A DNA stretch of 64,000 nucleotides from Mageeibacillus sp. (GTDB lineage: Bacteria; Bacillota; Clostridia; Saccharofermentanales; Saccharofermentanaceae). A program made the position numbers and the translations under genes. The stretch spans positions 199,635 to 263,634 of the forward strand of contig JAKVLB010000002.1 in NCBI GenBank assembly GCA_022484595.1, given 5' to 3'. This document shows, piece after piece, positions 60,005-64,000 of the stretch; the stretch's first letter is position 1; each line of letters starts with the position of its first letter. A model generated the notes under the pieces. The model was not told the origin of the DNA and searched no databases. It saw only the letters and a list, made by a program, of their open reading frames with translations.

Positions 60005-60232
60005 TTACTTTTTCTTCTCGCCTCTCCATGTGATTCTTCCTCTCGAAAGGTCATATGGCGATATCTCCATAGTCACCTTGTCTCCTGCCAGAATCTTGAT
60101 ATAGTTCTGTCTCAGCTTTCCGGACAGATGCGCCAGGACAATATGTCCGCTCTCAAGTTTGACCTTGAACATCGCGTTCGGAAGTGCCTCGTCAACTACT
60201 CCGACTACTTCAATAACGTCTTCCTTTGCCAT
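60005..60232 (-). CDS. infA: Translation initiation factor IF-1
   Basis: A 75-residue OB-fold protein, normal length, with [19 protein letters not shown] and [17 protein letters not shown]. It assists initiation by binding the A site of the small subunit. Its start codon shares one base with the map stop. Followed by a stable hairpin. Confidence 0.99.
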
Positions 60233-61002
60233 TAAAAACCCTCCTCGTAATCATAGGTCGTCATATATGGTCCGTTCTCTGTAATGAGAATTGTATTCTC
60301 GTAGTGTGATGCTGGTTTTCCGTCTCTTGTGACAATTGTCCACTCATCGCCGAGCATCTCTATGGCCCTGCTTCCGAGCGTTATCATCGGCTCTATGCAG
60401 ATTGCCATTCCCTTCTTAAGCTTATAGCCGTGTCCGGCTTTTCCGTAATTCGGCACATCAGGATCCTGATGCATCGATGTTCCGATTCCGTGACCTGTCA
60501 GTTCCCTGACGACTCCGTATCCGAAGCCCTCGCAATACTTCGCGATTGCTTCGCCGATATCTCCCGTTCTGTTTCCTGCCTTTGCCAGCTCAAGACCTAC
60601 GAAAAACGATTCCTCTGTTCTCTTTACAAGATCTTTCACCTCGGGAGCAACATCACCTATCAGGTAGGTTCTGCAGGCATCGGAATGATAGCCGTTAAGT
60701 ATTGCGCCGACATCAACCGACAATATATCTCCGTCATTAAGAACCGTTGATTTGCGCGGGATTCCGTGCACTACCGCTTCGTTTACTGATGCGCATATTG
60801 TGCCGGGGAACGGCGGCTGACCGAAATTCAGAAAAGACGGAATCGCGTCATGACTTCTGATTATTCCGTATGCAATCTTATCTACGTCGTGCGTCGACAT
60901 CCCGGGCTTCAGCTCGTCCCTAAGTGTCTTAAAAACTTCCTGAAGGATTTTTCCCGACTCCTTCATCATCTCAAATTCATCGTCTGTCAGTATCTCAACC
61001 AT
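60232..61002 (-). CDS. map: Methionine aminopeptidase, type I
   Basis: A 256-residue metalloenzyme that removes the starting Met of new proteins. Metal ligands are visible in order: [21 protein letters not shown] (two Asp), [14 protein letters not shown] (His), the Glu in CIEPM and the Glu in YENTILIT. Length is normal. AAGAAATG precedes the start with a weak RBS. It lies between adk and infA, as is usual. Confidence 0.98.
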
Positions 61003-61015
61003 TTCTTGTACCTTC

Positions 61016-61672
61016 TTAGTTCAGGTTCAGCCTTGCAAGACCATCTTCAATGCTCTTGATGCATGTCGCGGAGTCAACATTGTTGTTGCCTTCAACGATA
61101 ATTCCTCTCGCGTTATAAAAATCAATAAGCGGACGTGTGTTCTCTTTGTATGTTTCAAGTCTCTTGCCGACAGTCTCGGGGTTGTCGTCGGATCTCATAA
61201 CAGTCTTGCCGCCGCAAACGTCGCACACGCCTTCAACCTTGCTAGGCATGTACTTGACGTTGAAGCTTGCTCCGCACTTCTCGCAGACTCTTCTCGTTGT
61301 GACTCGGTCCATAATAATATCATCATCTGTAATTACATGAATTACTGCGTCAATCTTATCTCCGGTCTTCGCGAGAAGCTCATCCAGTGCTTTGGCCTGC
61401 GCAGTAGTTCTGGGAAATCCGTCAAGAATATACCCTGACTTGCAGTCATCGTTCCCCAGTCTGTCCGCCACCATTCTGATTGTAACGTCGTCAGGAACGA
61501 GTGCGCCCCTGTCTATATAGGATTTTGCCTCAATGCCGAGCTTTGTCTGTTCCTTTATGTTGTATCTGAACAGATCTCCTGTTGAAATATGAGCCAGACT
61601 GTACTTCTCTCTGATAACGGTTGCTGCTGTTCCTTTACCTGATCCAGGTGCTCCCAAAATAATAAGCTTCAT
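61016..61672 (-). CDS. adk: Adenylate kinase
   Basis: A 218-residue enzyme (ATP + AMP to 2 ADP) with the P-loop GAPGSGKGT, AMP-binding TGDLFR and a lid that carries a zinc site (CEKCGASFNV and CDVCGG), the Gram-positive form. I chose ATG 61672 (MKLIILG), after GGAGGAGA, over 61723. It follows the second secY with a 22-base gap, the normal secY-adk order. Confidence 0.98.
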   Translation of the reverse strand: MKLIILGAPGSGKGTAATVIREKYSLAHISTGDLFRYNIKEQTKLGIEAKSYIDRGALVPDDVTIRMVADRLGNDDCKSGYILDGFPRTTAQAKALDELLAKTGDKIDAVIHVITDDDIIMDRVTTRRVCEKCGASFNVKYMPSKVEGVCDVCGGKTVMRSDDNPETVGKRLETYKENTRPLIDFYNARGIIVEGNNNVDSATCIKSIEDGLARLNLN

Positions 61673-61694: not shown

Positions 61695-62969
61695 TTATTT
61701 AGAATACTTGTTCTTTCTGGCATCCTTCACAGTCTGCTTAGTCTGTTCATCAGCTGTCTTGATTCCGTTGCTGAGAATGATTGAACTCTCGGTAACCGCT
61801 CCTACTGTCATTGCACATGCGATGCCCAGAAACCATATTCCGTCCAAAGCCGGAATAATACTCAAAAGCATCGGAACTGCGCATATTAAAAGCATGTACA
61901 TTGCATCTGCCATGTTTAGATTGTTATATGTATTTATTAGATACTGAGCAGTCGGCTTGCCGGGACGTATTCCCTGGATATATCCGCCGTACTGCTTAAT
62001 CTGATTCGATGTATCTACCGGATTAAACTGTATCATCGCGAAAAAGTAAGTAAAAAATACCAGAAATAACACAAAGAAGATATAGAAGACTGAGCTTGAT
62101 TTGAAGTCAATGAAACCTCTTACCACAGCCGATTCTTTATTCGGCACAACCATAGCTATGACTGCTGCCGGCAGAAGAGTCAACGTAAATGAGTATACAA
62201 TCGGCATGATTCCGGCCTGTGTGACGCGAAGCGGAATTGCCTGATTCTGCATTCCGTACTGTTTCATGCCGACGGTTCTTTTCGAAAAAATGATGCGGAG
62301 TTTCTTCTCGCCGAGATTCGCAAAAACCGCGAGAATTATGAACGCAGCACCGATGACGACAGCTGCAACAGCATTGATTATCGATCCGGATACAAGCGCC
62401 GGCGGAATGCTTCTGATGATACCGGCGGTCAGTATAATTGTAATACCGTTGCCAAGACCTTTGGTGTTGAGAAGCTCCACGCACCATGAGCAGAACGCTG
62501 AACCGCAGGCAACGGTAAGCGTAACTATTCCGGCTCCAAGCCAGAAACTTATCCTTGAATCAATGAGAGAGTGTGTTCCCAGACAGTACAAAACTGCGAA
62601 AATTATATCCATCACAACGGAGCAGTAGCGCGTAAGTTTAGTGATAAAACCACTTCCAGCCTCACCCTGCATCGCTATATTGCGAAGCTTCGGTATTATA
62701 AGGGTAAGAAACTGCATAATTATCGACGCGACCAGGAAAGGATATATTCCCAGGCTTACAACCGAGCCGTTGCTAAGTGCCTTAAGGGAACATATATCAA
62801 TGATTTTTCCAACATCGCCCCATGTGCCGACGAGTTTAACGGTTCCGCTGTGGCTTATGCACGGGATCGGAACAAGGGTCAAAAGCACCATAATTGAAAC
62901 TATAAGGAACGATAACCACATCTTCTTCTTAAGCTGCGGAACCTTATATGCCTCGGTAAAACTATTCAT
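61695..62969 (-). CDS. Second SecY-family protein translocase channel (secY2)
   Basis: A 424-residue protein with ten predicted membrane helices and SecY landmarks: KVPQLKKKM at the start, VASIIMQFLTLIIPKL in helix 2, GNGITIILTAGI, the cytosolic loop IPLRVTQAGIMP, and the GIRPGKPTAQY loop with its conserved Arg. It occupies the standard secY position before adk, but another full secY-like gene lies upstream in tandem (ends 63120). It differs from that gene and common SecY in the plug region and helix 7-8 loop (GEKKLRIIFSKRTVGMKQYG). Its own promoter (63011-63038) follows a hairpin. It may serve a subset of exported proteins. Confidence 0.9.
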   Translation of the reverse strand: MNSFTEAYKVPQLKKKMWLSFLIVSIMVLLTLVPIPCISHSGTVKLVGTWGDVGKIIDICSLKALSNGSVVSLGIYPFLVASIIMQFLTLIIPKLRNIAMQGEAGSGFITKLTRYCSVVMDIIFAVLYCLGTHSLIDSRISFWLGAGIVTLTVACGSAFCSWCVELLNTKGLGNGITIILTAGIIRSIPPALVSGSIINAVAAVVIGAAFIILAVFANLGEKKLRIIFSKRTVGMKQYGMQNQAIPLRVTQAGIMPIVYSFTLTLLPAAVIAMVVPNKESAVVRGFIDFKSSSVFYIFFVLFLVFFTYFFAMIQFNPVDTSNQIKQYGGYIQGIRPGKPTAQYLINTYNNLNMADAMYMLLICAVPMLLSIIPALDGIWFLGIACAMTVGAVTESSIILSNGIKTADEQTKQTVKDARKNKYSK

Positions 62970-63010
62970 ATGCTTTATCTCCTTGAAATGTTCAAAATTA
63001 TAGCCATAGT

Positions 63011-63038
63011 ATTATATCGCAATTTGACTGAATTTAAA
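63011..63038 (-). promoter_or_regulatory. Promoter between the two secY genes
   Basis: On the minus strand TTTAAA (63033-63038) and a perfect TATAAT (63011-63016) are 16 bases apart, about 45 bases before secY2. It would drive secY2-adk-map-infA independently of the upstream secY. Confidence 0.65.
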
Positions 63039-63053
63039 CCTGCAAATCAATAA

Positions 63054-63084
63054 ACCCGCGAGAATTGTACAAATTCCCGCGGGT
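63054..63084 (-). terminator. Hairpin terminator after the upstream secY
   Basis: A 13-bp stem with one mismatch (63054-63066 with 63072-63084) and a 5-base loop lies between the two secY genes; the following tail TTTATTGATTT is only partly U-rich, so termination may be incomplete. Confidence 0.65.
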
Positions 63085-63119
63085 ATAACATTATCCGTCG
63101 CCAAAAGTAAGCGATATGC

Positions 63120-64000
63120 TTATCTTCTTCCGGCTTTGAGTGACAAATCGTCGAGGAACCCTCTCGGAGACCTGACTTCAAGCTCACCTTCAACCTGAAC
63201 AATCAGGTCATTTGCGACACTAGTAAGAATGAGTACAGATGTACCGGCGAACCAGACATTCTGAAATCCGGACAGCGTGCCTACGACTGTAGGAACAATA
63301 CATACAAGGATAAGGAAGAACGCCTCAATCCAATTGAGTCTGAATGCAGTAGTCTTGATAAAATCCGTTGTCGGCTTGCCCGCTCTGATTCCGCTTATTG
63401 TACCGCCGTTCTTGTTGATATTGTTGGCAATCTCAACAGGGTGGAACTGAATGGCAGAATAGAAGAATGTAAAACCGATGATAAGAATAAAATAAGCTAT
63501 GTAATACCAGACGCTGCCGGTGAAGCTTCTAAACCATACCGCTACCGGGTTTGTGCTGGAAGCAAAAAACAGAGAAGTAATTATCTGCGGAAGCGCAAGG
63601 AGCGACATCGCGAAAATTACCGGCATAACGCCTGACATATTAACCTTGAGAGGTATATAGTCACGGCTTCCGCCTATCTGAGACCTGCCGATTACCTTCT
63701 TTGAATACTGAACAGGAATTTTTCTCTCCGCATTCTGTACAAAAAGTACGAACACAATAATAAGCACAGCTACTAACGCAATTCCGATAAATACAAGGAT
63801 ACCGATCAGGATTCCTGCCACTGCACTGTCAAAAGTATTGCTTATTGAAACGCACTTAAGGTAAAGTGTCTTTGCCATCTGTGGAAGACGCGTTACGATA
63901 CCTGCAAAGATTATGAGGGAAACACCGTTTCCGATTCCCTTATCATTAATCTTCTCACCCAGGAACACTACCATCGCAGCTCCGGCCGTAAACGAAAGAA
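63120..64000 (-). CDS. secY: SecY protein translocase channel (N-terminus beyond window edge)
   Basis: The visible 293 residues run in frame to the window edge and continue upstream (reading LSFTAGAAM before the later ATG). They are the C-terminal two-thirds of SecY: GNGVSLIIFAGIV, the QNAERKIPVQY and IPLKVNMSGVMPVIFA motifs, GGTISGIRAGKPTTDF and a C-terminal helix with EVRSPRGFLDDL. It is closer to the housekeeping SecY than the next gene, judging from these motifs. In the key loop Pro is replaced by Ala (GIRAGK). It lies upstream of a second secY in tandem. Confidence 0.95.
   Translation of the reverse strand, partial: LSFTAGAAMVVFLGEKINDKGIGNGVSLIIFAGIVTRLPQMAKTLYLKCVSISNTFDSAVAGILIGILVFIGIALVAVLIIVFVLFVQNAERKIPVQYSKKVIGRSQIGGSRDYIPLKVNMSGVMPVIFAMSLLALPQIITSLFFASSTNPVAVWFRSFTGSVWYYIAYFILIIGFTFFYSAIQFHPVEIANNINKNGGTISGIRAGKPTTDFIKTTAFRLNWIEAFFLILVCIVPTVVGTLSGFQNVWFAGTSVLILTSVANDLIVQVEGELEVRSPRGFLDDLSLKAGRR

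Follow-up and report, generated by a model that had tools for sequence, protein, structure and literature searches.

The channel protein SecY is near-universal. A second, divergent SecY is known from the accessory SecA2/SecY2 system, which is represented by the models TIGR02920 and NF009082; SecA2-only systems, for example that of C. difficile, use the canonical SecY, and the chloroplast proteins SCY1 and SCY2 work in different membranes, each with a SecA and a SecE of its own. Here we analysed a 64,000-nucleotide stretch of Mageeibacillus sp. DNA (GenBank assembly GCA_022484595.1, contig JAKVLB010000002.1, positions 199,635 to 263,634 of the forward strand; hereafter the window, numbered from its first letter), at the end of which two secY genes, secY1 and secY2, lie in tandem. 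We propose that secY2 probably encodes a second working channel that would share SecE and SecA with SecY1, docking roles being divided between the two.

Compared with the described systems, SecY2 of the window is likewise a second, divergent SecY; unlike the accessory protein, it is encoded in the spc/alpha region, and neither Asp1 nor a second SecA was found with it. SecA2-only systems likewise specialise one Sec component in a clostridium, whereas here the channel is doubled and not the motor. The chloroplast likewise holds two SecY types, in one organelle, whereas the window genome has a single SecA and a single SecE. No earlier report of a two-SecY arrangement of this kind was found in the open literature searched, at the level of titles and listings.

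Two SecY proteins with altered docking loops

All features named here lie on the minus strand. The secY2 gene (61695..62969) is complete and encodes 424 amino acids, and secY1 (63120..64000) starts beyond the window edge; in the full genome it encodes 446 amino acids (locus L033, 7755-9095). A first-pass annotation of the stretch had described two distinct secY genes in tandem on the same strand, the downstream one before adk, and this was confirmed in the window and in the genome (G000, 1.92 Mb, 99% complete), which contains exactly two SecY matches. The two proteins are 31-32% identical. SecY1 matches PF00344 and TIGR00967, the latter with 351.2 bits (cut-off 253.6). SecY2 reaches 209.9 bits on PF00344, the Pfam SecY family (cut-off 32.2), and stays below the TIGR00967 cut-off with 178.2 bits, as do two deep-branching SecY2 proteins (219.8 and 194.1 bits). 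For comparison, the SecY proteins of 85 genomes of the genus were sorted into types by similarity: 53 genomes carry SecY2, 51 of these also SecY1, and another 24 have a single SecY.

The AlphaFold2 model of SecY2 has a predicted local distance difference test score of 82.6, lowest at the tip of loop C4 (residues 236-238), and a predicted template modelling score of 0.79. Its best PDB match is Thermus SecYEG (5aww_Y; template modelling score 0.79, E 1.8e-19). The structure alignment comprised the window SecY2, 32 of the 34 named SecY2 loci (without L073 and L093) and three SecY1 proteins. We take the pore ring to be formed by positions 82, 86, 187, 191, 278 and 408 in E. coli numbering. Five of these could be aligned (all except 408); four of them are I, L or V in 53/53 SecY2 proteins, and position 187 is likewise I, L or V, except for F in six and M in one. 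With its predicted SecY fold and hydrophobic pore ring, SecY2 quite likely forms a functional SecYEG-type channel.

SecY2 shares with the canonical SecY of the spc operon the predicted fold, the positions of the pore ring, the loop cores GI-x-x-G and QFNP and adk as neighbour, and presumably also the partners SecE and SecA. It differs in being a second copy, in a methionine at the equivalent of E. coli R255 and in its plug, where the conserved glycines are mostly lost. Strong divergence is also seen in transmembrane segments 8 and 10, where the SecY2 consensus equals the single-copy consensus at only 10% and 25% of positions, respectively, and at the C-terminus. The first-pass annotation had ascribed the divergence to the downstream copy, which is true of the plug; the upstream SecY1 has changed too, having lost the proline of the RPG motif. 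Loops C4 and C5 belong to the best conserved parts of both proteins (0.84 and 0.82 in SecY2, 0.95 and 0.90 in SecY1). That these loops are well conserved in SecY2 while most transmembrane segments drift would fit a regulator or quality-control decoy that binds SecA, ribosomes or other SecY ligands via the loops. But SecY1 conserves them equally well, the pore ring of SecY2 is hydrophobic and a whole SecY fold is predicted, and we consider a decoy very improbable.

According to published work, C4 and C5 belong to the SecA site (PMC8082313), and the RPG motif of C5 acts as a coupling switch for SecA or the ribosome: a triple mutant binds SecA more than tenfold weaker, and the arginine is described as invariant across the three domains of life (PMC4826270). 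The exchange R357H abolishes binding of vacant ribosomes and harms insertion dependent on the signal recognition particle, with binding of ribosome-nascent-chain complexes only slightly affected (PMC6028451). R357 stacks on A1392 of the 23S rRNA, and loop 6/7 contacts uL29 (PMC4737761).

In C4, the pair corresponding to E. coli R255-R256 is RK or RR in 32/32 outgroup SecYs (a set that excludes L010, L025, L029 and L031) and RK in all 24 single SecYs of the genus. SecY1 has kept the R (51/51) and nowhere the K (0/51); the window protein reads GRS (residues 258-260; 63681..63689) where single-copy SecYs have GRK. SecY2 has M for R and has kept K or R, both in 53/53, as in the GMK of the window protein (residues 234-236; 62262..62270). 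That is, RK occurs in 0/53 SecY2 and 0/51 SecY1 proteins. The C5 motif RPG (E. coli 357-359) is present in 32/32 outgroup and 23 of the 24 single genus SecYs (RAG in G030). It is absent from SecY1 (0/51), which has RSG (31), RAG (18) or RQG (2), the window protein being of the RAG type (residues 359-361; 63378..63386). SecY2 shows KPG (27), RPG (23) or KAG (3), an exchange of R for K in 30/53. The window SecY2 carries RPG at residues 335-337 (61959..61967), aligned to E. coli R357-G359; the earlier statement that the downstream copy keeps a GIRPGK loop thus holds for this protein and not for the family. The FNP preceding C5 is FHP or FKP in 51/51 SecY1 and unchanged in 53/53 SecY2 proteins. 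Twenty further clostridial SecYs have RPG (20/20), RK or RR (20/20) and mostly FNP (17/20).

SecY1 has also changed more than its surroundings. Compared between 12 SecY2-bearing and 15 single-secY genomes, it shows fixed differences from its single-copy relatives in 9/156 columns, versus 8/1148 in 16 other frames of this operon that were assigned to ribosomal proteins from their position (10-12 SecY2-bearing versus 15 single-secY genomes; Fisher p 4e-5). No literature on SecY R357 together with R255 was found in the open literature searched. What appears to be new here is that both SecY copies are altered at the cytoplasmic loops with which SecY docks SecA and the ribosome, and in complementary ways.

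Distribution, history and selection

Among the 85 genus genomes, 77 have a SecY match, and the remaining eight are 69-84% complete. SecY1 of the clade type is always accompanied by SecY2 (51/51 genomes), and only two SecY2 genomes, G057 and G068 (85-87% complete), have no SecY1. Extra SecYs on small contigs in G041 (L197) and G013 (L198) were dropped as foreign. The 34 named related loci come from Saccharofermentans sp., 'Ruminococcaceae bacterium', 'Clostridiales bacterium' and similar entries, and the stated source is usually the ruminant gut. Of 63 relatives from the family and order, 60 have one SecY match and three have none. In a wider sample of Clostridia (393 genomes, 381 outside the genus) SecY is nearly always single, with two matches in only 7/381. 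Three of these seven are accessory SecY2 proteins encoded next to asp1 (L249, L250 and L251), one reads as a gene split over two contigs, and two have a weak second match below the cut-off. In G473, two full-length canonical-like matches (L246 and L248; 326 and 322 bits) lie on two contigs; this may be foreign sequence, the contamination of this assembly being 9%. Within the genomes sampled, the two-SecY arrangement is limited to the Saccharofermentans-type genus.

Trees were calculated from 86 of 134 SecY rows and then from 58 and 50 chosen rows, the window SecY2 being included in the 86-row tree only. Three clades appear in that tree: SecY2 (support 100 in the Shimodaira-Hasegawa-like approximate likelihood ratio test), the partner SecY1 proteins (100) and the genus SecYs that occur singly (83). 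In the wider trees SecY2 falls inside the order with support 100 and inside the genus with support 95, on a long stem of 1.7-2.0 changes per column. According to the approximately unbiased test, a position outside the SecYs of genus, family and order is weakly disfavoured (p 0.07). The same test speaks against a firm placement within the genus, since a position just outside the genus SecYs was not rejected (p 0.34); because the SecY2 branch is long, the test leaves transfer from outside possible. Judged from these trees, the most likely, though not proven, origin of SecY2 is that secY was duplicated long ago within the lineage, at its place beside adk, and that the new copy then changed fast; the event most likely dates to the common ancestor of a single clade in the genus. 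When the 51 genomes with both proteins are compared in pairs, SecY2 distances follow SecY1 distances (Mantel r 0.87, with 0/999 permutations as high), so that inheritance of the two proteins after their origin looks vertical.

We then asked whether the second copy could be an artefact of assembly, or a duplicate that is decaying or dispensable. SecY2 does diverge faster. However, full-length secY2 reading frames exist in 53 assemblies, no loss of SecY2 after the duplication was seen in the 51 genomes with the partner SecY1, and the ratio of nonsynonymous to synonymous changes (dN/dS) over 16 pairs of relatives is 0.04-0.15 for secY2 (uncertain in four pairs, where dS exceeds 1); secY1 gives 0.05-0.24, and adk does not exceed 0.11. 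By these ratios, secY2 is under purifying selection. Retention and purifying selection together exclude a non-functional copy, and we have discarded decay or artefact as an explanation with hardly any doubt. Two outcomes that the first-pass annotation had named as contrary to its view, recent copies with identical function or one copy obviously decaying, are likewise at odds with two old, distinct clades and such low ratios.

Sec partners and the roles of the two channels

The window genome encodes one SecA, one SecE and one SecG. Across the genus, a SecE match was obtained in 75/85 genomes, single in each except G057 and G062. The extra SecE of these two was taken as foreign, because it scores 67-72 bits versus 43-56 in the genus, its frames are shorter and the assemblies are 5-7% contaminated. 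SecG matched in 80/85 genomes (twice only in G003), and SecA matched above its cut-off in 80/85. Among the SecA matches listed, each genome has one strong match, fragmented in the case of G069; weak second matches are frames of about 700 amino acids, and the one checked, that of G000, is RecG. No second SecE, SecG or SecA specific to SecY2 genomes was found in the 85 genomes (for SecA, among the matches listed), and Asp1 was found in none of them. With single partners, SecY2 must share them or do without.

These results bear on a substrate-specific channel of the accessory kind, serving for example pilins, S-layer or cellulosome-like proteins. The strong divergence of SecY2 in plug, transmembrane segments 8 and 10 and C-terminus would fit such a channel, as would the number of nonsynonymous changes per site (dN), which is higher in secY2 than in secY1 in 16/16 pairs of relatives. 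But a search of the window genome for secA2 or a second SecE, as the first-pass annotation had suggested, yielded neither, and Asp1 is absent from the sample. SecY2 scores only 84.2 bits on TIGR02920 (cut-off 249.6) and 95.1 bits on NF009082 (cut-off 353), whereas three true clostridial accessory SecY2 proteins, also under the cut-offs, reach 180-224 and 197-246 bits, respectively, and score better on these models than on TIGR00967. In addition, the neighbours of secY2 are adk and map and not substrate genes: no substrate gene was seen near secY2 in the 53 loci, relocated copies included. Model scores, the missing Asp1 and the single SecA led us to reject the accessory SecA2/SecY2 system itself, from which the first-pass annotation had rightly set this locus apart; its idea of a channel specialised for pilins or other envelope proteins found no support, and we regard a substrate-specific channel in general as quite unlikely. 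Accessory SecY2-Asp1 loci are rare in other Clostridia (3/381 outside the genus). The RPG position reads KAG, RAG or YAG there, so that loss of the proline marks a specialised SecY elsewhere too; the motif is altered in 3/3 accessory SecY2s, as in 30/53 SecY2s here. The accessory proteins are without GRK or GMK altogether, unlike SecY2 here.

We therefore return to a second working channel that shares its partners with SecY1. SecY2 would take the one SecE and the one SecG of the cell as its partners and be served by its one SecA, just as SecY1 is, so that the cell would make two kinds of SecYEG, or mixed oligomers, in which the C4 and C5 loops of SecY1 and SecY2 would dock SecA and the ribosome differently. 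Conserved docking residues are partly lost in each copy, and several of the lost residues differ; each copy probably couples better to one partner or client class. We infer the sharing of SecE and SecA, and likewise the division of labour. As read from the loops, the balance tips slightly towards SecY1 and SecY2 dividing the docking work at the cytoplasmic face. Our guess would be that SecY1 stays with ribosome-coupled insertion, since it keeps R357, and that SecY2, where this R is often K, leans to SecA-driven export. A stricter version, in which the 'RK' of C4 and the 'RPG' of C5 were split between obligate paralogues after the duplication, and two channels, or the halves of a mixed dimer, share the docking of SecA and the ribosome that a single protein normally provides, is a tentative idea that we hold to be less likely.

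Several observations weigh against a divided docking site. Over all conserved columns, the losses of SecY1 and SecY2 are not anticorrelated (Fisher p 0.74-1.0), so that the complementary pattern rests on few loop residues noticed after looking. Enrichment of SecY1 losses in C4 and C5 is borderline (p 0.06, 0.07 and 0.02 at three thresholds). Neither SecA (1/435 columns with fixed differences, 12 SecY2-bearing versus eight single-secY genomes) nor the frame taken as uL29 (0/26) shows matching changes. The conservation of C4 and C5 in SecY2 is not special, because SecY1 shows it too, and SecY2 is more diverged than SecY1 in 1275/1275 pairs (median ratio 2.4).

Gene order, expression and neighbours of secY2

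Towards its end, the minus strand of the window reads rplO - secY1 - secY2 - adk - map - infA, followed by genes of the alpha operon; names other than secY were assigned from sequence and position, without a profile scan. adk (61016..61672, start at 61672 inferred) begins 22 bases 3' of secY2, and map, the methionine aminopeptidase gene (60232..61002), and infA (60005..60232) follow. No Rfam family reached its gathering score at 59-64 kb. Across relatives, adk lies directly 3' of secY2 in 53/53 loci and map is the second gene in 52/53, and this fixed place suggests a housekeeping role for SecY2. In the eight single-secY genomes examined, secY directly precedes adk. The tandem order, with secY2 directly behind secY1, was found in 14 genomes, deep branches included. 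In 37/53 loci the secY2-adk pair is placed behind alr (alanine racemase), directly in 28 and two genes off in nine, which means that the ribosomal operon is broken between secY1 and secY2.

Gene order matters for the leading rival to a second channel in its own right, a hetero-oligomer in which SecY1 and SecY2 form one translocon, one docking SecA or the ribosome and the other conducting. SecY reportedly works as oligomers with one conducting copy, as Osborne and Rapoport are said to have proposed in 2007. The obligate co-occurrence (51/51), the parallel inheritance, the complementary loop residues and the single SecA, SecE and SecG would all suit a joint translocon. But secY1 and secY2 are not adjacent in those 37 loci, and even the tandem loci seem to control the expression of the two genes separately; we consider a hetero-oligomer unlikely, and prefer two channels with shared partners.

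The secY1-secY2 gap of the window holds a terminator-like hairpin of 13 pairs with a loop of five (63084-63054), followed by a promoter-like TTTAAA-16-TATAAT (63038-63011) and a likely ribosome-binding site AAGGAG, read directly from the sequence (62979..62984). In consensus scans against shuffled sequences, neither element class stood out clearly (terminators: one found, 0.5 expected; promoters: three found, 1.3 expected), and the folding of the gap beats 200/200 shuffles (z -2.7). Within 200 bases 5' of secY2, all but one (G022) of the 14 tandem loci have a strong hairpin (about -18 to -32 kcal/mol), and an exact TATAAT is present 37-58 bases 5' of secY2 in all 14, counted without a shuffle control. 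Six non-tandem loci were viewed; such a TATAAT is present in three and an equally strong hairpin in none. A hairpin of the same kind also lies between secY and adk in 8/8 single-secY genomes, so that it probably predates the secY pair, inherited from the ancestral secY-adk gap, and is not special to it. Separate expression of the two genes, as proposed in the first-pass annotation, is plausible. From its position, secY2 is probably cotranscribed with adk and map from its own putative promoter behind the hairpin.

Before the likely SecY2 start, an in-frame stretch MRYNTYALFxYQGEC.. is conserved in 12/32 named SecY2 loci (e.g. L076, L078); since it spans the putative ribosome-binding site, it may be no more than a leader under conservation. 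The 37 relocated loci (e.g. L119, L107) show a break just upstream of secY2 in the S10-spc-alpha cluster, which is usually rigid; no benefit of this is obvious, and in most alr-type loci metA (homoserine O-succinyltransferase) and nnrD (NAD(P)H-hydrate dehydratase) lie further upstream. Radical-SAM-domain-like genes and a small gene lie on the opposite strand upstream of secY2 in G036 (L148) and G031 (L149); in G036 the radical-SAM-domain genes separate secY1 from secY2.

A YidC-sulfatase-like protein encoded near secY2 in 12 loci was considered as a clue to function and rejected, since YidC-domain matches are equally frequent without SecY2 (103 in the 24 single-secY genomes, 251 in the 53 SecY2 genomes). 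The genus has many copies of long proteins (about 850-940 amino acids) that contain a YidC/Oxa1 (60KD_IMP) domain, whether or not SecY2 is present, with up to 15 YidC-domain matches per genome, several in close series (e.g. G060:C49, G014:C17, G064:C2, G012:C13). In the one scanned (L107:11097-13715), a sulfatase-like region also matched weakly (21.8 bits, cut-off 25). These proteins may be transferases of wall polymers whose membrane part resembles an insertase.

For the biology of the family, the locus means that a clade of gut bacteria, in many cases of ruminant origin, has kept two unequal SecYs over a long time, each without part of the docking site, and that a second SecY need not imply an accessory SecA2/SecY2 pathway. 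With such a clade one can study which residues of the loops act for SecA, which act for the ribosome, and whether a single complex requires two SecYs.

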